Below, piece after piece: positions 2,632 to 18,572 of a stretch of 64,000 nt of DNA (positions within the stretch are counted from its first letter, which is position 1; each line of letters starts with the position of its first letter). The notes below the pieces were generated by a model. The model searched no databases. It was not told the origin of the DNA and worked only from the letters and a program-made list of their open reading frames with translations. The translations under genes were made by a program, and so were the position numbers. The stretch comes from Myxococcales bacterium (GTDB lineage Bacteria; Myxococcota; UBA727; VGSZ01), in contig JAHFED010000019.1 in the NCBI GenBank assembly GCA_023248635.1, forward strand, positions 1-64,000, in the 5' to 3' direction.

Positions 2632-5592
2632 TCAGTAGGGAAAGCCCAAGACGAAGTAGGGCTGGTCGACGCCGCCGGTGGTGAGGCCCCGAGCGTAGCC
2701 AGCGCGCACGACGTAAGAGCCGTAGTAGCCGAGCACGATCTGCAGGCGGAGCTCGATGCCGATGCTGGTGGCTGCTCGAGCGGCGGCGGCGGCGTCGTTG
2801 AAGGCCAGGGCGGTGTCGACAAAGACCGCCCCGTGCAGCCGATCGACGAAGATGGGCAGGGTCTCGATGCCGCGCTCGATCTCCCAAAGGGGGAAGCGGT
2901 ACTCCAAGGTGGCCGCCCCGAGGGTGTCGCCGACCAGGTGGGCACCGGGAAAGCCGCGCAAGACGCCCGGGCCCGAGCGATTGCCGCCGACGAGGTCGGA
3001 GAGCAGATCGCGTCCGACGAAGCCGCCGACGACGAAGAGGGATCCGGGTCGGTCGTCGAAGGTGGTTCCGCCCGAGAGGTAGGCAGCGACGGCGTGGTTG
3101 CCGAGCCCGGGCACGGGTGAAAAGGCGCGGACGTCGACGAAGAGTTCGCGCACGTCGACGTCGGAGAAGGCGCGCCGGTCTCCAAAGCGCAGGCGGACGA
3201 AGCTTGTGAGCCCGCGCTCGGTGGAGACGCTGTCGCGGTACTGCTCCGTGCCCGAGTAGGACCAATCCAAGCTGAAGGTCTGCGTTTGCGGCTCGGTGAC
3301 GTTGGTCGGATAGCGGGGCGCCAGGGCTTCGGGAAAAGTCGTGAAGCCGGTCTCGTCGAAGGCCACCTGACGCTGCACGCCGAAGGTCAGACTGTGGGAA
3401 TGACGACGACGGCGGAAGGGGATGCTGACGCTGGCGCTGCCGCGGAGCAGGGTCTCTTGGTGCAGCTCGGGTACGCCGTCGTTGGTGCGCGCTCGGTCGC
3501 TCACGTTGGGTCGCAGCTCGACGCTCAGGCTCAGGGGCAGATAGAGGTCGGCGAAGCGGGTGTTCAACGAGAGACTCGGGCGCACCAACGTCGTGTCGAT
3601 GGCCGCGCGCAGCTGCCAGGAGAGCAGGTTGGCCGGATCAGTGCCGTCGGTGGCAAAGCCCAGCGCGAGGCCTCGCAGGGGGTCGCCGTCGACGAGGGGG
3701 AGCCAGGCCCGCGGCAAGAGTAGGGGCCAGGCGTTGTAGGTCTCGGGAGCTGTCTCCAGGTTCATCGCCGGGCGTGGGGCCGCCGTCGCTGTCGGTAACG
3801 TGGTGCCCTGCGCCTGTGAAAGCTCGGGCTCGCGGGTCGGGCCGGCGACGATGGGCGCGTGGTCGAAGTCGTAGTCGGCGACGTAGAGGTCGGCACCGTC
3901 GAGGTGGGCGTCGGTGAACACGATGCCTTTGCCGTCGGGCGTGACCAGCGGTTGGGCAGCGCCGCCGAGGGTGTCGACGATGCGGCGGGTCTCGCGCGTG
4001 GCGAGGTCCATCGCATAGACCGAGAACACGCCGTCGCGGTCGTCGACGAAGACCACCTGGTGGCCGTCGGGTGTGTAGCCGGGATCGAGCACATCGCCGC
4101 CGGTGGAGGCGCCGTCGACGAGGATCGAGAGGGTGCCGGTGACGGCGTCGATGGCGGCGATGGAGCGTTGCCCGTGCCCATCGAGGCGCGACACCAGGAC
4201 CGTGTGGCCATCGGGCGAGCACTGCGGCGTGTAGAGGATCTCGCCGGCCTCAGCGGTGAGCAGGGGCGTGATGGCCCCAGTGTCGACGTCGACGAAGACG
4301 ATGGCGCTGCTCAGGCCGGTGCGCTGCTCGGCCACCACGCGCCGGCTGCCGGGCACTGTGTCGGGGTTTCGCAGGCGCTGTTCGTGGGTCAGTTGGCGCA
4401 CCCGCCCATCGGGAAAACGCACGAAGAGATCGCGAAAGGAAAACCACGCGCTCTGGGTCTCGGTCTGGGCAAAGACCACCAGATCGTCGACGACGGCGAG
4501 GTCGGCGACGTCGGCGGTGCGCACCAGGGGGATGGGGTCGGGACGGGCGTTGGGCAAGCCGCGCAACGCGTAGATGCCCGCGGGACCATCGGGAGGGTCG
4601 GCGCCAAAGAGCAGGGCGTCGCCGTCGTCGTCACCTTGGTTGCGCAGGAAGATCGGCGAGCGGACCTGTCCACCGATGCGAGTGAGACGCCGCATTTTCG
4701 TCGGTCCACCGCGGGCGACCACGCGGGCGCGCACGTCGTCGGCCTCGGCCTTCAGCCCGTCGAGGAAGTCCTGCCAGTCGAGGGCCAGGTCTCGTTGGGT
4801 GAAGGACTCGATCGAGCGCTGCACCCCGTAGGGAACGAGCTGGCCGCCGTAGTCGTGGGCGTAGGCGGCCCAGAGCGATTCTCCGTACTTGCGCGTGAGG
4901 AACTCGACGAAGAAGGCGCCGTAGACGTAGGCGGCTGCTCCGCCGGGGGGTCGGCGCGAAGCGTTGGCGACGTCGTCGAGGGACCAGCGATCGCCCTGCA
5001 ACGCCGCGATGCGCAGGGGGGCCTTGAACAGCGAGGAGCGCAAGCGTCCCCCGCTGTCAGAGAAGCGCGTTTCGGCATAGGTCGCGAGCCCTTCGACGAA
5101 CATGCGCGGCTGGACCAGGTTGGGCGGCCAGCTCTTGCCGAGGACGACGTTCACGATGGCCGGCACGCCGTGCACGATGTCGAGGTGCACGACGTGGAGA
5201 ATCTCGTGCTGCACCAACATGCGCAGCCACTGGCTCGTCTTTGCCAGCTCGCTGTCGTCCTCGGGCGTCACCGCGCGCAGATCGATCAGGTCGTAGGGCA
5301 CCACGTTGGCAAAGCCATTGGGGGAGTCGGTGACGTCGTGGAGCACGACCTGAATGCGCTCTGCCGGCATCGACTGCACCAGCTCGCCGGCGTTGTGCAC
5401 GCATTCGTCGACGAGCCCGGCGACTTCTTGCCCGAGGGGCGTGATGGCTTCAGGAAAGTGCACATCACAGCAGGGCGTGGCGATGGTCCTCCAGTGCAAA
5501 TGGGGCGCAGCCGCAGCCCGCACGCCCACAGAAAACACGACAGCAGCAACGACGACGACGGCCCACCCTAACGGGGCCTGCCGCTCACGCAT
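2632..5592 (-). CDS. Metallopeptidase / TolB-like propeller / outer-membrane barrel fusion
   Basis: This 986-residue protein joins three parts that usually occur separately. After a signal peptide (about 1-28), residues 40-260 resemble a peptidase-MA gluzincin: HEILH at 129-133 gives two zinc ligands and the catalytic Glu, and E167 in FVEGLATY is the likely third ligand. Residues about 310-600 carry PD40/TolB-type propeller blades (SPDGHTVLVSRLDG, TPDGHQVVFVDDRDG, TPDGKGIVFTDAHLDG). From about 640 to the end lies a beta-barrel of the BamA/surface antigen D15 type, with GPGVLRGFPG and EYRFPLWE and a terminal aromatic residue. The protein is therefore probably an outer-membrane barrel carrying a periplasmic or surface protease. 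Its start overlaps the end of the alpha/beta hydrolase gene by eight bases, implying translational coupling. Substrate unknown. Confidence 0.85.
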   Translation of the reverse strand: MRERQAPLGWAVVVVAAVVFSVGVRAAAAPHLHWRTIATPCCDVHFPEAITPLGQEVAGLVDECVHNAGELVQSMPAERIQVVLHDVTDSPNGFANVVPYDLIDLRAVTPEDDSELAKTSQWLRMLVQHEILHVVHLDIVHGVPAIVNVVLGKSWPPNLVQPRMFVEGLATYAETRFSDSGGRLRSSLFKAPLRIAALQGDRWSLDDVANASRRPPGGAAAYVYGAFFVEFLTRKYGESLWAAYAHDYGGQLVPYGVQRSIESFTQRDLALDWQDFLDGLKAEADDVRARVVARGGPTKMRRLTRIGGQVRSPIFLRNQGDDDGDALLFGADPPDGPAGIYALRGLPNARPDPIPLVRTADVADLAVVDDLVVFAQTETQSAWFSFRDLFVRFPDGRVRQLTHEQRLRNPDTVPGSRRVVAEQRTGLSSAIVFVDVDTGAITPLLTAEAGEILYTPQCSPDGHTVLVSRLDGHGQRSIAAIDAVTGTLSILVDGASTGGDVLDPGYTPDGHQVVFVDDRDGVFSVYAMDLATRETRRIVDTLGGAAQPLVTPDGKGIVFTDAHLDGADLYVADYDFDHAPIVAGPTREPELSQAQGTTLPTATAAPRPAMNLETAPETYNAWPLLLPRAWLPLVDGDPLRGLALGFATDGTDPANLLSWQLRAAIDTTLVRPSLSLNTRFADLYLPLSLSVELRPNVSDRARTNDGVPELHQETLLRGSASVSIPFRRRRHSHSLTFGVQRQVAFDETGFTTFPEALAPRYPTNVTEPQTQTFSLDWSYSGTEQYRDSVSTERGLTSFVRLRFGDRRAFSDVDVRELFVDVRAFSPVPGLGNHAVAAYLSGGTTFDDRPGSLFVVGGFVGRDLLSDLVGGNRSGPGVLRGFPGAHLVGDTLGAATLEYRFPLWEIERGIETLPIFVDRLHGAVFVDTALAFNDAAAAARAATSIGIELRLQIVLGYYGSYVVRAGYARGLTTGGVDQPYFVLGFPY

Positions 5593-6598
5593 CGACCCTC
5601 TTGAGCAGGCGCAGCACCGCTCGCTCGACGAGGCGCGGTTGTTCGATGGGGGCGCAGTGGCTGCCCTCGACCATCATCAAGAGCTCGCTGCGCGGAATGC
5701 GGGCATGCATCTCTTCGGCGATCCACGGGGGCGCGAATTTGTCGCGGGCGCCGCCGACGACGAGGGTGGGTGCGCTGATGGTGGGCAGCACTTCACGGGC
5801 GCTGTGCCGGTGCATGTCGCGGGCGAGCTGGGCGAACACGCGCATGTCCATGCGCCCGAGATGCTCGATGTAGGGGCGGAAATCGCGCTCCTGGATGTAG
5901 GCTGGATTCAGTTCACCTTGTACCGCTTGATGATAAGCAAAATCAGTGCGCATCAAGCGCTTCCATGCGCCGCCAATCTGATGCCATCGGTTGATGATGC
6001 CTTGGCTGCCCTGGTCGAAAATGAGGTTCATCACGAGGTTGGCGAGGGGACGGAGCGCGTCGGGCGCGTGGGGCCCATGCCATGTCTTGATTGGGTCTTC
6101 GAAGACACCACAAAAGAGACCGAGTCCACGCACTGTGGCCGAGAACCGCTGCTCAGAAAAAGCCCGCCAACACTCCAAGGCCACGGGTACGCCCATGGAA
6201 TGGCCCAGCAAGACGACGTCGCCGACGCCGAAGTCGGCCAGCACCTGCGAGAGGTCGTCGACGATGGAGGTGATGCACACGGTGTCGAGGTCTTTGGGCA
6301 CCCCGCTCTCGCCGTGGCCGCGCCATTGCAAATGCAGCAGCGGGCGTTCGCCGACGAGGCGTGAGAGCAGATAGGGCCAGACGTAGCCGTCGCAGCCGAG
6401 GCCGTCGCACAAGACGATGGTGGGCCCTGGGGGTGCGTCGTCGCCGTGGGATCGGCGGTTCCAGCGGCGCACGACCAGCGGCGTGCCGTCTTTGGCGTCG
6501 ACGACGTAGCGGTCGGGATCGCCGATGTGCAGCGTCGACGTGATGCCGCGCTCGCGGGTCTTCTTGAGGGCGGTGCGAGAAGGAGTGCTGTCAGCCAT
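5585..6598 (-). CDS. Alpha/beta-hydrolase fold enzyme
   Basis: The 337-residue protein has the hallmarks of an alpha/beta hydrolase. The nucleophile elbow GHSMG places the catalytic Ser at 134; the oxyanion region is CDGLGCDG (64-71); QWRGHGES (91-98) follows strand 4; and likely acid and base are D286 (GARDKF) and H314 (EGSHCAP). No signal peptide is present, so it is probably cytoplasmic. It overlaps by eight bases both the glutamine amidotransferase gene upstream and the peptidase/barrel gene downstream, making a tight three-gene operon. Substrate cannot be told from sequence; esterase, lactonase and C-C hydrolase activities all use this fold. Confidence 0.85.
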   Translation of the reverse strand: MADSTPSRTALKKTRERGITSTLHIGDPDRYVVDAKDGTPLVVRRWNRRSHGDDAPPGPTIVLCDGLGCDGYVWPYLLSRLVGERPLLHLQWRGHGESGVPKDLDTVCITSIVDDLSQVLADFGVGDVVLLGHSMGVPVALECWRAFSEQRFSATVRGLGLFCGVFEDPIKTWHGPHAPDALRPLANLVMNLIFDQGSQGIINRWHQIGGAWKRLMRTDFAYHQAVQGELNPAYIQERDFRPYIEHLGRMDMRVFAQLARDMHRHSAREVLPTISAPTLVVGGARDKFAPPWIAEEMHARIPRSELLMMVEGSHCAPIEQPRLVERAVLRLLKRVDA

Positions 6599-7400
6599 GG
6601 CGCTGGGCCTCGTCGTGAGCGATGGCGGCGAAGCGACGGACCAAGGCGGCCGCCTGCGTGGTGGTGGTGACGTTGGCGATGCGCGTGTCGCAGGCGGAGG
6701 CGCCCAGCTCTCGATCGAGGGCTTCGCGGCGAACCTCGAGGTAGAGCCTCATGGTGACGTCGTCGAACTCCGGATGGAACTGCACGCCCCATTGGCGTCG
6801 CCCCGCTTTGACGACGTGGTTGTTGTCGTGCGGTGCCTTGCCCAGCACCACCAGGTGATTGCCCGGCGAACGGATGACGTCGCGGTGCGTGCATTGGGCC
6901 TGGAAGGAGCGCGGCATGGTGCTCCACAGCGGGTCGTCGACGATGACGGCGGTGTTGGTCATGGCGACGTCGATGGTGCCCATTTCCCGGCCGCGCGGAT
7001 TTCGGCCGACGTCGGCGCCGTAGGTCACGCCCATCAGCTGGTGCCCGAAGCACACCGCCAACAAGGGGAGGTCGTCGTCGACGAGCTTGCGCACGAGCCT
7101 TTGCCCCCAACGCATCCACGGTTCGTCGTCGCCGACGTAGGCGGGCGAGCCCGTCATGATCGCTGCGTGGTAGCGGGAGAGCGAGGGCAGGTCGTCGTCG
7201 GCGCGGCGACAGGTCATGTCGAGCTCATCGACAGCGATCTTGCGCAGGGGGTTTCCCTCGCCGTCGTTGAGGGTGCGCTGGAACAATCGATAAAAGGGGC
7301 CGCAATGGGCGTGCACGCGGCTCACGGCTTGACCCGTGCGCAGGACGACCAAACGCGTGGTCGGGAGCTCGCTCGATCGGGGGGCGCTTGTCGACGTCAA
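6591..7400 (-). CDS. Class I glutamine amidotransferase-like protein
   Basis: The 269-residue protein has the GATase1 triad: nucleophile C117 in LLAVCFGHQ, and H209 and E211 in GVQFHPEF. It resembles stand-alone amidotransferases related to GMP synthase N-domains and gamma-glutamyl peptide hydrolases such as PuuD of putrescine degradation (a different protein from urate hydroxylase PuuD). Such enzymes release ammonia from glutamine or cleave gamma-glutamyl bonds; no synthetase partner lies nearby. The start is TTG at 7400, supported by AGGAG ten bases upstream. It is first in a three-gene operon and is transcribed divergently from the gene at 7442, so the 41-base gap must hold both promoters. 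Confidence 0.85.
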   Translation of the reverse strand: MTSTSAPRSSELPTTRLVVLRTGQAVSRVHAHCGPFYRLFQRTLNDGEGNPLRKIAVDELDMTCRRADDDLPSLSRYHAAIMTGSPAYVGDDEPWMRWGQRLVRKLVDDDLPLLAVCFGHQLMGVTYGADVGRNPRGREMGTIDVAMTNTAVIVDDPLWSTMPRSFQAQCTHRDVIRSPGNHLVVLGKAPHDNNHVVKAGRRQWGVQFHPEFDDVTMRLYLEVRREALDRELGASACDTRIANVTTTTQAAALVRRFAAIAHDEAQRHG

Positions 7401-7441
7401 CGGCTTCTTCTCCTGCGGCCCGCTGATGCTAGCGTCATTGC

Positions 7442-8020
7442 ATGGACGTCGTGCAATGGCTGACCCCCCGACCCGGAAGTGACGACGTCGCCGTCTGCTT
7501 CGCTCCTCCCTGGGCCGTCAATCTGCCTCCCCACGCGGGCTTGCCGGCCTTGCGCCGTCGCTCGGCGACGCTTGTGAGCCGGCACCTCACCCGACCCTTC
7601 GCCGTCGCGGTGGCGGCCGATCTCGTCGACGACGAAGCTCCTCTGCGCCTGCCCGGCACCGCTGGCGCGGTCTCTTTGCGCATCGCGCTCTCTGCCAACG
7701 GCGTGGCCTTGCTCGATGCTGGCGCGTCTGACGTGCGCTTTGCTGCAGTGCTGGGCGAGTTCGTCGGCGTCGTCGTCGACTTGTGTGAAGCCGCGGGGCT
7801 CCCCCTCTTGGGCGCTCAGCCCGTCGACGAGCGCCGCGCCCTTCAGCTGCTGCTGGGGGCCTTGCAGGGCAACGCGCGTGCTCGCTTGGCCGATGCCCTG
7901 CTCTTGTTCGCCGGCGCCGTCGAAACGTGTGCGCTGGCGCGGGGGTTCGAGGCGCGCTGCTCCCTCCTCCACGGCAGTCGGATCATCCCCATCAATGCCC
8001 GCATCGAGGTGGAGTTGTGA
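7442..8020 (+). CDS. Hypothetical protein, first gene of the cutA operon
   Basis: A 192-residue Ala/Leu-rich protein without signal peptide or obvious motif. The pattern of short beta segments followed by helices (FAVAVAADLVDD, RFAAVLGEFVGVVVDLCEAAG, ARLADALLLFAGAVETCALARG) suggests a compact soluble domain. Its stop overlaps the GTG start of cutA (GTGA), and cutA in turn overlaps the eight-Cys protein gene, so the three are translationally coupled. I do not recognise the family. Confidence 0.75.
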   Translation: MDVVQWLTPRPGSDDVAVCFAPPWAVNLPPHAGLPALRRRSATLVSRHLTRPFAVAVAADLVDDEAPLRLPGTAGAVSLRIALSANGVALLDAGASDVRFAAVLGEFVGVVVDLCEAAGLPLLGAQPVDERRALQLLLGALQGNARARLADALLLFAGAVETCALARGFEARCSLLHGSRIIPINARIEVEL

Positions 8021-9707: not shown

Positions 9708-12700
9708 TCAGGGCAGACGGTATTTGATGGTGACTTCGGCGAGGTCGGTGCTCACCGACGACACGGAGCTCGAAGCCCCGCTGGGGTCGCCGCCGCGAAT
9801 GGCAAAGCGCAACGCGCGGTCGGGTCCGGAGAACACGCGCTGCAAGAACGCGGAATCGGTGCTCGAGAAAGGCAGCGCCGCCGGCGTCGTCACCGGAGCC
9901 GTGTTCGAGCTCACCGGTCGCCAAAAGCCGCCGTCCCAGACGAAGAGGTCGGCGCCGTTGGCGCTCGCAGACCCCGCGGCCCCGCGCGCGCCGGCGATGA
10001 TGCTCGAGGTCAAAGAAAGGATGGTCGCGCTCGTCGCAGCACCCGAAGAGCGGAAGGAGAAGGTGGCTTGGTGGCTGACGCTGCGGGCGGCGGAGCCGTC
10101 GAACAGCCAGGTGTTCTGATCGGGCGTGACACCGCCGAAGCTGATGGTGACGCCGTTGAAGTCGTCGTAGGCGATGGCCGGCGTCGTGCGTCCAACGGGT
10201 GCGGCGTCGGCTTCGGGATCGACGTCGGTGCGGTTGACCCAGGAGGCGCCATCCCACTCACCGATGGTCTCGACCACATTGCCTCCGCCGTTGGTGCCAC
10301 CCATGGCCACCACCCGTTCGCGTCGTCGATCGAAGGCCGCCGAGAGGAAGCGCTGTTGGCTCGGGACGCTGGCGAACTTCTTCCACCGGGTGCCATTCCA
10401 GGTCCAGGTCTTGTCGCAGAGGGTGCTGCCGCCGTCGCAGGCCGCATTCGGCAGGCCGGATGCGGTCCCCGCCACCAGCACGATTTCGTCGCGCACGTCG
10501 TCGAAGGCCATGCCTCCGCTGGCCCGCTCGGTGGGGTTGCCGTCGTTTTCGACGTCGGTGACTGGGGCGATGGCCCAGTTCACACCATTCCACAGCCAAG
10601 TGTCGTCGCAGCCGGCGCCGCCGTCGCAGCTGGCGTTGTTCAGCACCTTGCCGCCAAACATCACGACGACGCCGCGCTGGGCATCGAAGGCCATGTGATG
10701 GCTGGAGCGCGCCGTGGGGTTGGTGGTCGGTGCTTGCTTGGTCCACACGGCGCCGTTCCAGGTCCACGTGCCGCCGCAATCGGTGGTGCCCGAGCCGTCG
10801 CAGTTGGTGCCGCCGCTGCCGCCAAAGAGGACGACGACGTTGCGCACGGAGTCGTAGGCCATGGCGTGGCCGAAGCGCGCTGCGGGGGTGGGGTTGGGGC
10901 CGGTGATGATGCCGGCGACCTTGGTCCAGTGGTTGTTGATCCACTCCCAGGTGAAGGCGCAGTTGCCGTTGCCGCCGCCTTCGGGAACGCAGCTGTTGGC
11001 GCCGTCGCCGTTGCGCCCGCCGAACATCACCGCGCGCCGTCGGGCGCTGTCGTAGGCCATGGCCGACTCACGGCGGTTGGCAGGGTTCCCGTCGTTGGCT
11101 TCGTCGGGGATGAGATCGGCCCAGCTGGTGCCATCGAAGCGCCAGATGCCATGGCAGCCGCCGACGACGCCGTCGCAGGAGCCGATGCCCGGCAGCGTGG
11201 TGCCAGCGAACATCTCGAGGCCGCGCGCCGTCGTCGCATACCCGCTGTAGCGCCGACCTTCCGGGTCGCCGTCTCCTTCGGGATCGGTGGGCGTCAGCTG
11301 CACCCAGCGGGTGCCGTCGAAGGACCAGGTGTCGCCGAAGAACGTCCCGCCGCTGTTGCGCGCGTCGCCGGTGCCGCCGCCGAAGAGCACGACCTCTTGG
11401 CGGGATGCGAGGAAGCCCGAGACCGCACCCTGGCGGGCGGGGGGCCGCGGCGTCGACGTGACGTCGGTCCAGGTGGTGCCGTCCCAGGTCCAGACGTCGT
11501 CGAAGGGGGTGGTGCCGGTGGCGCCGCTGCCGCCGACGAGGACGATGCGATTGGTGCGTTCGTCGTAGGCGAGGGCGTTGCCGTAGCGGGCCGAGGGCTT
11601 GGTGGCGCAGGTGTCGCTGGCGGGGGATGCGTCGCAGCGCTGGGTCCAGGTCGTGCCATCCCACTCCCACACGTCAGCCAGCGCGGTGGTGAGGCCGAAA
11701 GAGGTCGCACCGCCGAAGAGCACAACCTTGGCGCGGCGGGAGTCGTAGGCGAGGCGGTGGTTGCGGCGTCCCGGGGGCAGGGTGCAGACGTCGGAGGCGG
11801 GTGAGCCCTCGCAGCGTCGGTTCCAGCTGTGGCCGTCGTACTCCCAGGTCTCGTTGGAGTCGGCGCCGCCGAAGAGCACGAGCTTCTCGCGGGCTGCGTC
11901 GTAGACGATGCCACCGCTTTCGACCCGCGCAGAGGACGGTTTGCCGTCGCCCTCGGGATCGAGGGGAACAGCCTCGGTCCAGCTGTCGCCGTCCCATTCC
12001 CAGGTGTCGTTCTTGGTGCGCTCGGCCTCGCCAAAGAGCACGAACTTTCCGCGCCCCGCATCGAAGCCGGCGGCCACCGTCAGGCGTGCTCCGGGCGTGT
12101 CCAGGCCGCCAGCGTTGACCCAAGTCGGTGACGCCGTCGTCGTCAACTTGCCCGTGCCGCTTCGATCGATGCCGTTGCTGGCCGCACCAGCGATGGCGGC
12201 GACGGTGGTGAGGTCGTCGGTGGACCAGGGGTTTGCTTGGAACTCGTGCGGGTTCTCGAGCACGCTGCCGACGACCTTGCCGCCGAAGCCCGCGGTCCAG
12301 CTGACGTCGCGCACGGGGGTCGCCTGCAGAGCGCCGCCAGCGACGTCGTCGGATTCGTTGCCGGCGTCGTCGACGGCGGTGACGAAGACCTCGGGGCGGT
12401 CGCCACCGGACAGGGACACAGTGGCGCCCCCGCCGCCGACGGAGGACCGCCCGATCTCTATGCCGCTGACGCGCGGAGTGGGTCCATCCCAGGCAATCAC
12501 GGTGCTGCCGGCGACGGCGCCGCTGGCGACTGCGATGCGGAAGATCTTGGTGACGTCGCTGGCGTCGGAGCCCCAGGGTTCGCGCTTGTAGACCAGTGCG
12601 TCGGCGACACCGACGGAGGGAGCGGCCGGCGCCGAGGTGTCGACGGTGAAGGTGGGCGTCAGGTTGGTCACGGTTTGGTTGCCCGCGAGGTCGGTGGCGG

Positions 12701-15700
12701 TGACGCTGATGGAGTGCACGCCCTGGCCGGTCGTCGCCAGAGTGTGGTCGAAGACGAAGGTGGTGCCCGTCGACGACGTCTTGGTGAAGCTCAGCGACGA
12801 CGGCGACCCTGCGGTGGTGGTCACCACGGGCGTGCTGCTGGCCTCGCTCAGGGTGAAGGTGAGCTGCACGCGGGTGCCTGTCGTCACCGCCGTCACGGTG
12901 CTGAGCGGGTTGGTGTCTGTGGGCACCAGCTTGATGAGCGCGCTGTTGGCGACGACGGCAGGCCCTGTGAAGTCCAGGGCCAGGCTGTTGGAGGCGAAGC
13001 CCTTGTTGCCGGCGGCGTCTTTGAGGGCGACGGCGACGGCGACGGTGGCTTCGGTGGCGGCGGGGATCTCGGTGCCGAGCACGTTGTAGGTGCAGGTCTT
13101 CACCAAGGGGCTCGCAGTGTCTGTGCAGAGCACAGAGTTGCCCGCAACAGTGACGACGATGGCGCCAGCGGTGGCGGCCGACAGGGCCTCGGACAAGGTC
13201 AACGAGATGGTCACTGCGCTGCGGCCCGCGGCGGTGCTCGCGAGGGCTGGGTTCACCGTGAAGGCGGTGACCGAGGGCGTCGTGGTGTCGAAGGCGAAAG
13301 AGGGTCCGGCGACGCCGACGCTGCGGTTGCCGGCCAGATCGGTGAGGTCGACGTTGGAGGTGTAGTTCCCCTGTGCATCGCTGCCGCCGACGGTGTGCGT
13401 GAAGGTGTTGCCGGTGCCGACGAAAAAGGGCGTGGGTGCCGGACCGCTGATGTTCAAGGTTGGAGCCAGCGCCAAGGTCTCCGACGGCGTGAACGTGAGC
13501 ACCACGTTGTCCCCGGGGCGCGCGAGGCCCGGCACCACCGTCGACGTCGTCGTCGGGGCCACGAAGTCAAAGACCACCGAAGAGCCCGCGAAACCGACGT
13601 TGCCAGCGGCATCGCGAGCGGTGAGGGCGATGCCGGCGGTGCCGTTGCCTTCGTTGCCGACGACGTTGTAGCTGCAGACGACGTTGAGGGGATCGGACTG
13701 CTCGATGCACGACGTGAAATTGCGTCCGCCGATGGTGGCGTCGAGGCGCGCGGGTGCGAGGTTGATCCGTTCCGACACGCGCAAGCTCAGGGTGACGACG
13801 TTCTTGCCCGACACCGTCGACGCAAACGCCGGGCTGACGCTGTTGATGCTGATGGTGGGCGTGCTGACGTCGAGGGTCAGGCCGGGGCCGGCGATGTTGG
13901 TTGCGACGTTGCCGGCGAGGTCGGTGAGATCGATGCGGCTGACGTAGTTGCCGCCAGTGTCGCCGTTGACGACCAGGTGATTGAACGTGTTGCCGGACGC
14001 GATGGTGCTCAGCGTGGTCGGTCCTGTGACGCGCAAGACCGGGCTGGCAACGATGGCCTCGCTCGGCACCACCGAGAACACGACGTTGTCACCTGGGCGC
14101 GCCAGGCCGGGCGTCACCGTCGTCGTCGCCGTGGGGGCCACGAAGTCAAAGACCACCGACGCCGCTGCGAAGGCCGTGTTGCCGCCGGCGTCGCGCGTCA
14201 GGACCGAGATGCCTTTTTCGCCGTTGCCTTCGGTGCCGAGCACTCGGTAGCTGCAGGTGAAGTCTTTGGGATCGACGCCGGCCGTGCAGGAATCAAAAGC
14301 GCGACCACCGATGGTCGTCGTCAACCCGCCCGCCGGTGGCACCTCGGACAGGTGCAGGGCCAGCGTCACGGTGTTCTTGCCGACGACGGTGCTGGCAAAG
14401 GCCGGGGCAGCGTTGATCGAGGTGACCACGGGGACTGAGGTGTCGAGACTGAAGGACGCTCCGACGATGTTGGTCGCGACGTTGCCCGCCAAATCGGTGA
14501 GATCGATGCGGCTGTTGTAGGCGCCTTCGACGTCGCCGCCGACGACGGCATGGCTGAAGCTGTTGCCGCTGTTCACGAAGGTCAACGTCGACGGACCGCT
14601 CACGCGCAGGGTCGGGCTGCCGATGATGGGCTCGCTCGGCACCACGGCGATGGTCAGGTTGTCGCTGGGGTGACCGACGGCCGGCGAGACCGATGAGGTC
14701 GCCGTGGGGGCGATGAAGTCGAAAGTCACTGCGGTCGCACCAAAGCCGGTGTTGCCTGCAGCGTCGCGCACGACGACGGAGATGCCTCTTTCGCCGTTGT
14801 CCTCGTTGCCGCGCACCGCATAGATGCAGGTGATGTCGTGGGCGTCGACGCCGGGGGTGCAGCTGTCGAAGGCACGGGCGCCGATGGTGGCGCTCAACCC
14901 GCCCGGAGGCGGCACTTCAGAGCTGTGCAACACCAGGGTGACGACGTCGTTGCTGGGCGCGCTGCTCGCGAACGCCGGCGTGGCGCTGATGGCACTCACG
15001 ATGGGCGTCGACGTGTCGAGGCGGAAGCCGGGTCCGACGACGCTGGTGGCGACGTTGCCCGCGAGGTCTTCGAGGTCCAGCTCACTCGTGTAGCTGCCTT
15101 CGGCGTCGCTGCCGAGCACGCTGTGAGCGAAGGTGCCGCTGTTGGCTCCCGCGTTGAAGGTCAACGCCGAGGGTCCGCTGACGCGCAGGATCGGCGCCAG
15201 GGTGGCTTCGCTGGTGACGATGGACAGCACGATCTTGTCGCCCGGGCGGGCGAGGGCCGGGGACGCCGCCGCCGACGTCAACGCCGGTGGCGTGAAATCG
15301 AAGGCAACGCTGGCGGCCGCGAATCCGCTGTTGCCGGCGGCGTCGCGGGTGACGATCGAGATGCCTTTTTCGCCGTCGTCATCGACGGCCTGCACCGCGT
15401 AGCTGCACGTGAAGCCGTCGGAACCATCGGCCAGACAGCCATCGAAGGCGCGCCCATCGATGAGAGCAGTGACGTCGCCGGCGAGGACGGGCTCGCTACT
15501 GACGAAGGAGACGCTCACCACATTTCGGCCAGCCACGCGGGAAGCGAAGGCGGGTGCGTCGACGATGGTGACGAAGGGCGTCGACGTGTCCAGGGCGAAG
15601 GAGGGACCAGCAACGGTCGACCGGTTGCCAGCGAGATCCTCGAGGTCGAGCTCGGTCGCGAAGGCGCCGTTTGCGTCGCTGCCGACGACGCTGTGGTGGA

Positions 15701-18368
15701 AAGTGCCGCCGTTGTCGACGAACGAGAGCGCAGGGTTGGTGCGCAGCGCAGGGCTCGCAGCAAGGGTCTCGCTCGCGGTGGTGGAGAGAACGACGTCGTC
15801 GCCGGCCCGGGCCACCGCCGGAGAAACCGACCCGGCCGCCAGCGTGGGTGGCGTGAAGTCGAAGACGACGCTGCCAGAGGCGAAGCCGGCATTGCCCGCG
15901 AGATCGCGGGCCACGACGGAGACGCCCGCCTCGCCTTCGTCTTCGTCTCCTTGCACGAGGTAGACGCAGCGGAGCAAGAGGGCGTCGTCGACGTCGGCTT
16001 CGCAGTCGCTGAGCTCGCGTCCGCCCATCGAAACATCGATGTCGGCGGCCTCGGAGAGCTGCAGCGTGACGGTAACGACGTCGCGGCCGGCGACGGTGCT
16101 GGCAAAGGCTGGCTCGATGGAGGTCACCGTGATCGCAGGGGTGCTCACGTCGACCGCGAAGGCAGGGCCAGCGACGTCGAGGGCGCGGTTGCCGGCGAGG
16201 TCCATCAGGTCGACGCTGCTCAGGTAGCTGCCGGCGACGTCGCCGCCGGTCACAGCGTGCGCAAAGGTCGCTCCCGACGGCGAAAACGCCAGGGCGCTGG
16301 GTCCGGCGACGTGCAGCAGCGGGCTCCCGGCCAAGGCTTCGTTGCCGACGAGGCTGATGACGAGGTTGTCGCCGGCCCGGGCGAGCAGCGGCGACACCGT
16401 GGCCGACGCCAGCGCAGGAGCCGTGAAGTCGAAGACGACGACGGCGGCGGCGAAGCCCACATTGCCGGCCCCGTCGCGGGCCACCACCGAGATGCCCGCT
16501 TCGCCTTCGGCTTCGTCGCCGACGACCTGGTAGGTGCACAGCACGTCGGTGGGCGAGGCGTTTTCGACGCAGGAGTCGAAGGCGCGTCCACGAATGCGCG
16601 CATCGAAGTCGGGAAGGGCCAGGCGCACCGGTTCCGACAAGGTGACGGCGATGGTGACGACGTCGCGACCGGGCTGCATCGACGCATGGGTCTGACCCGC
16701 AACCACACCGAGCACGGGCGCGCCGACATCGAGGCTGAAGGAGGGGCCGGCGACGTCGACGGCGGCGTTGCCGGCGACGTCGACCAGGGTCAGCGTCGTG
16801 GTGTAGTTCCCGCCGATGTCTGCGTCGGTGACGTTGTGCAGGAAGCTACCGCCGGCGGCGCTGAAGTCGACGTCGCCAGGTCCATCGACCTGCAAGCTCG
16901 GGGGCGCGGCCAGGGTTTCAGCAGCGATGACGGCGACGACGAGGGCATCGCCTGGCTTGCCGCGCAGGGGCGTGGCTGTCGCCGACACCAACACCGGTGG
17001 GGTGAAGTCGAGGGTGACCGGAGCAGCGGTGGCGAAGCGGCTGTTGCCCGCGGAGTCGGTGGCCGTGACCGTGATGTCCGCCGTGCCTTCGGTGTCGCTG
17101 TCGACGACGTCGAAGCTGCACTGCCAGGCGATGGGCGCGCTGACCCCGGTGGGAGCGCAGTCGTTGAGGCTACGAGTGCCCACGCGCACTGCCACGACGG
17201 CGGCTTCGTCGAGGGCGAAAGAGAGCACCATGCTCGAGCGTCCAGCCTGCCTGGAAAGGTGGGTGGCGCTCGTCGTCGGCGCGTTGAGGAACTGAGGAGC
17301 CGTGGCATCGACGAAGACATGATCGAGCACCACGGGGGGCCCGACATTGCCGGCGACGTCGCGGTATCCGATCAGCCGTACTTCGTAGGCGCCGTCGGGG
17401 TCGCCCGCGCCGATCAGACGCGAAGCCGCATACACTAGGCCCACGCGCTCGATGCCCGGCATGGCGAGCTCGACGTCACCAGAAGCCAGCACGACCGTCG
17501 GAGGCTCACTGAACACTTCATCGGTGGTGAAGGACACGTTGGCCAAGCTGCCAGCACCGAAGTGCGCGGGCGCCGGCCGCACTTGGGGCGTGACGAGGGG
17601 CGCGTGGAAGTCGAGCACGAAGACGTCGTCGAAGCGACGCTCCGAGCTGTTGCCCGCGGCATCGACCACAGTGACGACGACAGCGGCGGCGCCCTCGGCA
17701 TCGACGGCGGCGTCGGCGATCAGGCTGAAGCGCGAGACCAGCGGGTCGTCGTCGTCGGGTCCATCGGCGGCAAAGAAGCGGCCGTCGGCGACGACGACGC
17801 TGCTGGCGCTGTCGACGAGCTCATCGGTGCGCAGGCGCAGCTTGACGACGCCGCGATCCTGGGCCAGCGCGGACGCCGTGACTTCGACGACGGAGGGCGC
17901 AGCGAAGTCGAAGCGGACCGCCCCGAGTCCCAGGCCTTTGGCGACGTTGCCAGAGGCGTCGACCAGAGTGCCGACGCGAATGGCGACGTCACCGGCCGGT
18001 TCGTCGCCGCGTGCACGATAGATCGCGGTGATGGTGTCGCCGTCGACGCTGACGGCGAAGGCGCGCTGGCTGAAGTCGAGCTCCACCACCGGGAGCTGAA
18101 ACAGGGTCTCGCTGGCCTTGAAGGCGACGGTCACATCCTGTCCAGCCCGCACCAAAGCCGGAGCGACGACGACGTCGGTGACCGCGGGAGGCACGTCTTC
18201 GATGTCGACGTCGGCGATGCAGACCCCGATCTGCTGGCGGCAGGTGAACTGCTCGGGACACTCGGACTTGTCGTTGCACTTCAGCACAAGGTCAGGAGGG
18301 AGGACGACGTCGGTGCACGCAGCAGCAGCCAGCAAAGCCGTCGTCGTCACCAGCCGTGCAATTTTCAT
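9708..18368 (-). CDS. Giant Ig-repeat / kelch-like surface lipoprotein
   Basis: About 2,886 residues. The signal peptide MKIARLVTTTALLAAAAC gives a lipobox, so the mature protein is lipidated. Residues about 50-1920 are tandem Ig-like modules arranged as pairs; the boundary motif FDFTPP, FDFTAP or FDFVAP followed by SVSPxLARPGDNV recurs about eight times, with VDLxDLAGN and the Cys-containing IGGRAFDSC as other landmarks. After a linker, residues about 2090-2750 carry kelch/galactose-oxidase-like blades (YDAAREKLVLFGG, WEWDGTTWTQ). The last 110 residues look beta-rich. The ATG at 18368 is preferred over upstream in-frame starts because of the GAGGG site and because the signal peptide begins there. 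Likely a cell-surface adhesin or matrix protein; ligand unknown. Confidence 0.88.
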   Translation of the reverse strand: MKIARLVTTTALLAAAACTDVVLPPDLVLKCNDKSECPEQFTCRQQIGVCIADVDIEDVPPAVTDVVVAPALVRAGQDVTVAFKASETLFQLPVVELDFSQRAFAVSVDGDTITAIYRARGDEPAGDVAIRVGTLVDASGNVAKGLGLGAVRFDFAAPSVVEVTASALAQDRGVVKLRLRTDELVDSASSVVVADGRFFAADGPDDDDPLVSRFSLIADAAVDAEGAAAVVVTVVDAAGNSSERRFDDVFVLDFHAPLVTPQVRPAPAHFGAGSLANVSFTTDEVFSEPPTVVLASGDVELAMPGIERVGLVYAASRLIGAGDPDGAYEVRLIGYRDVAGNVGPPVVLDHVFVDATAPQFLNAPTTSATHLSRQAGRSSMVLSFALDEAAVVAVRVGTRSLNDCAPTGVSAPIAWQCSFDVVDSDTEGTADITVTATDSAGNSRFATAAPVTLDFTPPVLVSATATPLRGKPGDALVVAVIAAETLAAPPSLQVDGPGDVDFSAAGGSFLHNVTDADIGGNYTTTLTLVDVAGNAAVDVAGPSFSLDVGAPVLGVVAGQTHASMQPGRDVVTIAVTLSEPVRLALPDFDARIRGRAFDSCVENASPTDVLCTYQVVGDEAEGEAGISVVARDGAGNVGFAAAVVVFDFTAPALASATVSPLLARAGDNLVISLVGNEALAGSPLLHVAGPSALAFSPSGATFAHAVTGGDVAGSYLSSVDLMDLAGNRALDVAGPAFAVDVSTPAITVTSIEPAFASTVAGRDVVTVTLQLSEAADIDVSMGGRELSDCEADVDDALLLRCVYLVQGDEDEGEAGVSVVARDLAGNAGFASGSVVFDFTPPTLAAGSVSPAVARAGDDVVLSTTASETLAASPALRTNPALSFVDNGGTFHHSVVGSDANGAFATELDLEDLAGNRSTVAGPSFALDTSTPFVTIVDAPAFASRVAGRNVVSVSFVSSEPVLAGDVTALIDGRAFDGCLADGSDGFTCSYAVQAVDDDGEKGISIVTRDAAGNSGFAAASVAFDFTPPALTSAAASPALARPGDKIVLSIVTSEATLAPILRVSGPSALTFNAGANSGTFAHSVLGSDAEGSYTSELDLEDLAGNVATSVVGPGFRLDTSTPIVSAISATPAFASSAPSNDVVTLVLHSSEVPPPGGLSATIGARAFDSCTPGVDAHDITCIYAVRGNEDNGERGISVVVRDAAGNTGFGATAVTFDFIAPTATSSVSPAVGHPSDNLTIAVVPSEPIIGSPTLRVSGPSTLTFVNSGNSFSHAVVGGDVEGAYNSRIDLTDLAGNVATNIVGASFSLDTSVPVVTSINAAPAFASTVVGKNTVTLALHLSEVPPAGGLTTTIGGRAFDSCTAGVDPKDFTCSYRVLGTEGNGEKGISVLTRDAGGNTAFAAASVVFDFVAPTATTTVTPGLARPGDNVVFSVVPSEAIVASPVLRVTGPTTLSTIASGNTFNHLVVNGDTGGNYVSRIDLTDLAGNVATNIAGPGLTLDVSTPTISINSVSPAFASTVSGKNVVTLSLRVSERINLAPARLDATIGGRNFTSCIEQSDPLNVVCSYNVVGNEGNGTAGIALTARDAAGNVGFAGSSVVFDFVAPTTTSTVVPGLARPGDNVVLTFTPSETLALAPTLNISGPAPTPFFVGTGNTFTHTVGGSDAQGNYTSNVDLTDLAGNRSVGVAGPSFAFDTTTPSVTAFTVNPALASTAAGRSAVTISLTLSEALSAATAGAIVVTVAGNSVLCTDTASPLVKTCTYNVLGTEIPAATEATVAVAVALKDAAGNKGFASNSLALDFTGPAVVANSALIKLVPTDTNPLSTVTAVTTGTRVQLTFTLSEASSTPVVTTTAGSPSSLSFTKTSSTGTTFVFDHTLATTGQGVHSISVTATDLAGNQTVTNLTPTFTVDTSAPAAPSVGVADALVYKREPWGSDASDVTKIFRIAVASGAVAGSTVIAWDGPTPRVSGIEIGRSSVGGGGATVSLSGGDRPEVFVTAVDDAGNESDDVAGGALQATPVRDVSWTAGFGGKVVGSVLENPHEFQANPWSTDDLTTVAAIAGAASNGIDRSGTGKLTTTASPTWVNAGGLDTPGARLTVAAGFDAGRGKFVLFGEAERTKNDTWEWDGDSWTEAVPLDPEGDGKPSSARVESGGIVYDAAREKLVLFGGADSNETWEYDGHSWNRRCEGSPASDVCTLPPGRRNHRLAYDSRRAKVVLFGGATSFGLTTALADVWEWDGTTWTQRCDASPASDTCATKPSARYGNALAYDERTNRIVLVGGSGATGTTPFDDVWTWDGTTWTDVTSTPRPPARQGAVSGFLASRQEVVLFGGGTGDARNSGGTFFGDTWSFDGTRWVQLTPTDPEGDGDPEGRRYSGYATTARGLEMFAGTTLPGIGSCDGVVGGCHGIWRFDGTSWADLIPDEANDGNPANRRESAMAYDSARRRAVMFGGRNGDGANSCVPEGGGNGNCAFTWEWINNHWTKVAGIITGPNPTPAARFGHAMAYDSVRNVVVLFGGSGGTNCDGSGTTDCGGTWTWNGAVWTKQAPTTNPTARSSHHMAFDAQRGVVVMFGGKVLNNASCDGGAGCDDTWLWNGVNWAIAPVTDVENDGNPTERASGGMAFDDVRDEIVLVAGTASGLPNAACDGGSTLCDKTWTWNGTRWKKFASVPSQQRFLSAAFDRRRERVVAMGGTNGGGNVVETIGEWDGASWVNRTDVDPEADAAPVGRTTPAIAYDDFNGVTISFGGVTPDQNTWLFDGSAARSVSHQATFSFRSSGAATSATILSLTSSIIAGARGAAGSASANGADLFVWDGGFWRPVSSNTAPVTTPAALPFSSTDSAFLQRVFSGPDRALRFAIRGGDPSGASSSVSSVSTDLAEVTIKYRLP

Positions 18369-18369
18369 T

Positions 18370-18388
18370 GATGCCCTCAAGGGCATTG
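18370..18388 (-). promoter_or_regulatory. Hairpin covering the ribosome site of the giant lipoprotein gene
   Basis: The bases just before the ATG at 18368 contain ATGCCC-TTGA-GGGCAT (minus strand), a 6-bp stem that buries the GAGGG ribosome-binding site. A longer-range regulatory role is inferred only from position. Confidence 0.35.
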
Positions 18389-18572
18389 TTTCCGAACACA
18401 TGTAGGGGTCAATGCGTAAAGGTGTGAGGAAGTCCCACACGAAACACGTTGACACTGGCAAAGGCTGGTGCACGGCTCAGCAACGGAGTTCATCGTGGGT
18501 GGCGCGATATGCACCACTTGAAGCCGTATCCAGCACATCCATCGGCCTTTTCATCGGCCGGTGATTGCATGT

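Follow-up and report, generated by a model that had tools for sequence, protein, structure and literature searches.

A predicted zinc peptidase, a TolB-like propeller and an Omp85-type barrel in one chain: a protein family of Myxococcota and other bacteria

We analyzed a 64,000-nucleotide stretch of a Myxococcales bacterium genome (contig JAHFED010000019.1 of assembly GCA_023248635.1; hereafter, the window) and found that one of its proteins, 986 residues long and encoded on the minus strand at 2632-5592, carries a peptidase, a propeller and a barrel in one chain, an arrangement far beyond chance. This peptidase-propeller-barrel protein, which we named PPB, stands for an architecture inside the Omp85 superfamily that is real, widespread and, within the reach of our literature search, apparently undescribed; its hydrolase partner is conserved. 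It belongs to a set of three minus-strand open reading frames (ORFs), the other two encoding an amidotransferase (6591-7400) and an alpha/beta hydrolase (5585-6598). The original prediction, made from the letters of the window, had described three genes with eight-base overlaps, the last one encoding a fusion of a metallopeptidase, a propeller and an outer-membrane barrel. The ORF positions and both 8-base junctions, ATGCGTGA and ATGGCTGA, were verified in the sequence, and the fusion is supported by conservation, by the Pfam matches of relatives and by the predicted structure.

Architecture and conservation of PPB

The AlphaFold model of PPB, built with 41 sequences, has a mean pLDDT of 87.7 and a pTM of 0.88 and shows a mostly helical domain up to residue ~293, a propeller at residues 297-578, a linker, and 16 strands within residues 629-983. 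The linker between the propeller and the barrel is poorly ordered, with pLDDT below 50 at residues 588-598. At the N-terminus, residues 1-27 (5512-5592, minus strand, as are the other PPB features) look by eye like a Sec-type signal peptide and contain a hydrophobic helix at residues 6-21 in the model. Residues 28-296 (4705-5511) are predicted to form a gluzincin-fold zinc peptidase domain, residues 297-578 (3859-4704) a TolB-like beta-propeller and residues 629-983 (2644-3708) a 16-stranded Omp85-type barrel. In fold comparisons, the propeller matched TolB (3iax) with Z 26.0 and rmsd 2.3 over 240 aligned residues, and the barrel matched E. coli BamA (9mge) with Z 22.2 and rmsd 3.3 over 292 aligned residues; among the matches listed, the barrel fold is nearest to BamA, TamA and SAM. 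PD40 is the sole Pfam match of the window PPB. Across 41 PPB members, Pfam matched PD40 in 40, Omp85 (PF01103) in 23 and Peptidase_MA_2 in three, and TIGR02800 matched all 41, the window protein scoring 56.7 bits against a TolB equivalog cut-off of 343.15.

To describe conservation, we used 80 named loci, the top scorers by tblastn among 141 relatives; they include near-duplicates, and some end close to the PPB gene. The HEILH zinc-binding motif (residues 129-133, 5194-5208) corresponds to an HEXXH motif with an EG further downstream in all 80 loci, with the HEXXH-33-E spacing found in 59. Glu167 of the EGLA motif (5092-5094), the third zinc ligand by analogy, is likewise present in 80/80. Tyr222 lies in YLYG, for which a strict Tyr pattern fits 72 loci, and the remaining eight also show YLYG on inspection. 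In the barrel, LRGF (residues 878-881, 2950-2961), which we take to be the counterpart of the Omp85 loop-6 VRGF/Y motif ([VL]RG[FY]), has an LRG[FYW]-type equivalent in 78/80 relatives. H129, E130, H133, E167 and Y222 are invariant in all 41 aligned PPBs, and H129, E130, H133, E167 and E174 in all 28 PPBs of a second alignment, from which a tree was also derived. The latter covers 28 of 30 loci, the fragments L003 and L025 having been dropped; within those 30, HEXXH is missing only from L003, a fragment without that part, and LRG[FY] only from the truncated L025. The two locus sets (L001-L030 and L039-L118) share some contigs (for example, of G003 and G005) and are therefore not independent. 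Alignment A1 has 19 rows, and the rows of A3 (41) and A4 (57) are selections from the 80 loci plus the window. The near-invariance of the zinc-site residues and of LRG[FYW] suggests strong selection for both peptidase activity and the Omp85 barrel. The original prediction had named separate barrel and peptidase proteins in relatives as evidence against itself. We found a single chain throughout the full-length relatives read, and the co-occurrence of HEXXH, the LRG motif and the Pfam matches in them indicates that peptidase and barrel are one protein there.

The peptidase domain folded alone gave an AlphaFold pLDDT of 92.3. It matched M30 lugdulysin with Z 16.4 and rmsd 5.0 over 234 aligned residues, and M1 aminopeptidases with Z of about 14-15 and Foldseek E of about 1e-5; M30, M1, M61 and collagenase entries come first among the matches listed in the fold search. 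By sequence alone, the domain had no convincing match to a solved structure (best E 0.15), and M48 was not among the Pfam families matched at E 0.01 in the 41 PPB members. Judged by its HEXXH motif with a downstream Glu and by its predicted fold, the PPB peptidase would belong with the gluzincins, clan MA(E).

The 80 loci are mostly from metagenome-assembled genomes of Deltaproteobacteria/Myxococcota, together with strains of Sorangium, Polyangium, Nannocystis and Enhygromyxa; outside that group are nine Gallionella/Nitrosomonadales-type, two Nitrospirota and two Gammaproteobacteria loci. Within the phylum, PPB was found in 74 of 193 genomes at an E cut-off of 1e-20, which also misses a divergent PPB form present in six genomes of one large-genome family that is probably Myxococcaceae-like (f13, L129-L134). 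These six PPBs share 37-64% identity with the first of them, contain HEXXH-33-E and [LI]RG[FY]E, and all have a lipobox-like Cys near the N-terminus. Pfam matches them weakly (PD40 in two, Peptidase_MA_2 in one, Omp85 in none); hhalign relates them end to end to the main family, with a probability of 100% and E 7e-57 over 869 columns.

Genes next to PPB

The hydrolase gene (5585-6598, minus strand), like the PPB gene, starts with ATG. Its 337-residue product matches Pfam Abhydrolase_6 (E 7.3e-18), has a Ser134/Asp286/His314 triad in the alignment and scores below the cut-off for the 3-oxoadipate enol-lactonase PcaD (TIGR02427, 71.2 bits vs 255.85). Hydrolases of the window type are near-universal in the phylum, occurring in 172/193 genomes at E 1e-20. 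In 42 of the 74 genomes with PPB, drawn from 13 of 25 families, the best hydrolase match sits immediately upstream of PPB and in the same orientation. Both genes are on one contig in 45 genomes, and 42 of these 45 show this arrangement; the gap is under 300 bases in 38 of the 42 and 2126 bases at most. On the tree of the 28 full-length PPBs, adjacency needs 3 changes compared with 9.4 when shuffled, and none of 500 shuffles was as low. Because adjacency is frequent and few tree changes are needed, we conclude that the hydrolase-PPB pairing is real and was inherited, with some losses.

Support for the pairing is thinner in the 80 named loci than in the phylum count. There, direct tblastn placed a hydrolase near PPB in 6/80 loci and an iterated profile in 15/80, every one upstream and on the same strand; L088 has it 5.9 kb away, the position in L039 comes from a partial segment, and the others are at most 1 kb away. 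Some half of these 15 hydrolases belong to a second, different alpha/beta hydrolase type, found in Nannocystis and Polyangia loci (L106 at 6663-7892, L110-L112, L086, L090, L113 and L115), and the hydrolases of L086 and L090 have lost the nucleophile Ser. Neighbor clustering over the 80 loci showed no partner common to all; the ten recurrent neighbor proteins scanned include RapZ, HPr kinase, PTS enzyme I, sigma-54, NAD kinase and a RecN/SMC-like ATPase.

The pairing could reflect gene packing, that is, hydrolase and PPB may share a promoter by descent and have no common function, an explanation that is possible and that we nevertheless doubt. It would fit the much wider occurrence of the hydrolase (172 against 74 of 193 genomes) and its separation from PPB in 32 of the 74 genomes, although two of these (G167 and G070) may be linked because both genes sit at contig ends. 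It would also fit one Myxococcaceae-like genome (L119, about 6435-7211), where the hydrolase homologue is near BipA/TypA and away from PPB. However, order and strand are kept in 13 of 25 families, mostly with short gaps, and three changes on the tree suffice, which argues against packing alone.

The remaining gene (6591-7400, minus strand) encodes a 269-residue class-I glutamine amidotransferase according to Pfam (GATase, E 3.3e-17) and a motif check. Its triad is intact (Cys117/His209/Glu211, with CFGH at 117 and FHPE at 208), and it scores below the PRK09065 cut-off (NF006562, 184.1 bits vs 205). The gene starts with TTG, nine bases after AGGAG, the likely ribosome-binding site (7410-7414, minus strand). 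Since a divergent ORF starts at 7442, the amidotransferase gene is the first of the unit. Its adjacency was compared by eye, with G002 left unjudged as the gene is at a contig edge there. All three genes are together in only 3 of 58 relatives (G000, G001 and G005). Among the matches listed, five genomes have the amidotransferase and hydrolase genes side by side, namely these three and G014 (contig C7) and G025 (contig C128), and in the last two (L125, L126) PPB is not beside them. The amidotransferase thus joins the pair only in close relatives, and a three-gene pathway as a general unit was rejected. The co-occurrence that the original prediction had proposed to check therefore holds for PPB and the hydrolase (42/74 genomes) and not for the three-gene set. 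Its further suggestion, that the two small enzymes could supply or process the barrel's substrates, is weak: PPB would be exported, whereas no signal peptide was seen by eye in either the hydrolase or the amidotransferase, so both are probably cytoplasmic and therefore probably do not act on these substrates.

Downstream of the PPB gene, by 153 bases, the window encodes a predicted lipoprotein with the lipobox LSGC (1912-2478). This ORF (start 2478) was considered as a fourth operon member and discarded; in tblastn, no other compared locus matched it (best other E 0.93). Elsewhere in the window, the protein at 365-1678 has a trigger-factor C-terminal domain match and no further Pfam family, and a minus-strand protein of 2921 residues (9708-18473) contains bacterial Ig-like and kelch-type repeats.

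Candidate functions of PPB

We tentatively favor the reading that PPB is a protease of the periplasm, tethered to the outer membrane, that matures outer-membrane or envelope proteins at the barrel or controls their quality, similar to BepA at BamA, and regard it as plausible without calling it probable. PPB would be exported by Sec, and its C-terminal 16-stranded barrel would insert into the outer membrane, a location that we infer. The N-terminal peptidase and propeller would then lie in the periplasm, as suggested by the even strand number, by the lipobox-like Cys of the divergent form, which fits a periplasmic N-terminus, and by the precedent of PlpD, whose enzyme domain is exclusively periplasmic (PMC11116518). 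The gluzincin is presumably active, with HEXXH and Glu167 binding zinc and the conserved Tyr222 fitting the oxyanion Tyr of M1 and M30 enzymes. The likely task of the TolB-like propeller is to hold or gate substrates, perhaps in a BamB- or TolB-like docking part. One chain would thereby do what E. coli splits between the zinc peptidase BepA and BamA; BepA acts on LptD at BamA (PMC8423444). The cytoplasmic hydrolase would likely serve the same envelope process, for example in acyl-ester or thioester turnover, and the amidotransferase may be a later, lineage-specific addition. A 'TolB protein' that may or may not be of the PPB family is among the detected outer-membrane candidates of M. xanthus (PMC3222651).

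Several points weigh against this reading. A POTRA domain, which usually handles the clients in Omp85 proteins, is missing from PPB: the linker at 578-629 is mostly free of strands and helices, and no POTRA family appears in the Pfam table of the 41 members. With PPB in only 74/193 phylum genomes, it would not be a core assembly factor. The hydrolase is not beside the PPB gene in the 32 genomes noted above, and the quality-control role itself is argued by analogy. The most complete version, a one-molecule outer-membrane quality-control machine that unites a peptidase like BepA, a docking propeller like BamB or TolB and a client-binding barrel like BamA, with the hydrolase as cytoplasmic partner in envelope maintenance, is in our view unlikely to be right in full. 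If it were true, folding or destruction of outer-membrane proteins would be decided inside one molecule.

Two other roles are also unlikely. PPB could be a self-translocating surface peptidase whose barrel passes the peptidase and propeller outside, as in type Vd-like secretion, to digest prey or nutrient proteins. Omp85/TpsB barrels include translocases, the 80 loci include predators (Sorangium, Nannocystis and Polyangium), and surface exposure is raised for enzyme-bearing Omp85 proteins by Heinz and Lithgow (PMC4104836). However, PlpD, the model of this idea, is the very protein that keeps its enzyme domain periplasmic (PMC11116518), and the lipobox-like form in Myxococcaceae-like genomes speaks against export to the surface. 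A 269-residue gluzincin with a closed propeller would also be poor cargo, and PPB occurs as well in Gallionella-type bacteria, which are not known as predators. With about equally little probability, PPB could instead be a barrel-assembly factor that inserts particular outer-membrane clients in the manner of BamA or TamA, the peptidase merely trimming or regulating them; the BamA/TamA/SAM-like fold of the barrel and the LRG[FYW] motif in 78/80 relatives fit this idea, and the missing POTRA domain and the absence of PPB from most phylum genomes at the 1e-20 cut-off do not. We consider a channel for peptide uptake or processing, in which peptides enter via the barrel and are trimmed by the peptidase, improbable despite the fold near M1/M61 aminopeptidases, which are peptide trimmers, and the M1-like active-site set, because the LRG motif is kept while loop 6 normally plugs Omp85 barrels, and no inner-membrane peptide transporter is among the ten neighbor proteins scanned.

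Relation to known systems

A full-text literature search, with most subscription papers outside its reach, found no description of a peptidase-propeller-Omp85 fusion. By propeller and barrel architecture, PPB is predicted to be close to the WD40-Omp85 subfamily, in which a TolB-like propeller stands N-terminal to the Omp85 barrel, likewise without POTRA; its source (Heinz and Lithgow 2014, PMC4104836) defines Omp85 by the barrel, with POTRA usual and not required. No word beginning with 'peptidase' occurs in the main text of that paper, whereas an intact gluzincin domain precedes the propeller in 80/80 PPB relatives.

TolB shares the propeller fold (Z 26) with PPB but is a soluble partner of Pal, and PPB falls far below the TolB cut-off. 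M30 lugdulysin (Z 16.4) and M1 aminopeptidases (Z about 14-15) resemble the PPB peptidase in their gluzincin catalytic fold but are soluble or ectodomain enzymes of about 8-16% identity that lack propeller and barrel. PF00149, a metallophosphoesterase family that PMC4104836 calls a metalloprotease, was not matched in the Pfam search of the 41 PPB members. It is carried by the 'Metallo' Omp85 subfamily of that paper, which, like PPB, joins a metal enzyme to the Omp85 barrel. PlpD, a patatin-like Omp85 protein, also combines an enzyme domain with a 16-stranded barrel, but its enzyme has the patatin (lipase) fold, and it carries POTRA and no propeller.

Omp85 barrels are chiefly seen as devices for assembly or translocation that carry POTRA domains. 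PPB would show the Omp85 scaffold turned into an enzyme platform, with a zinc peptidase and a TolB-type propeller replacing POTRA, and its pairing offers a lead to the function of a near-universal Myxococcota hydrolase. BepA with BamA in E. coli would be a functional parallel, since there a zinc peptidase works on clients of the outer membrane next to an Omp85 barrel; the two are separate proteins, and the peptidase is of the M48 type and carries TPRs, whereas PPB would place the protease, in the same chain, right where outer-membrane proteins fold.

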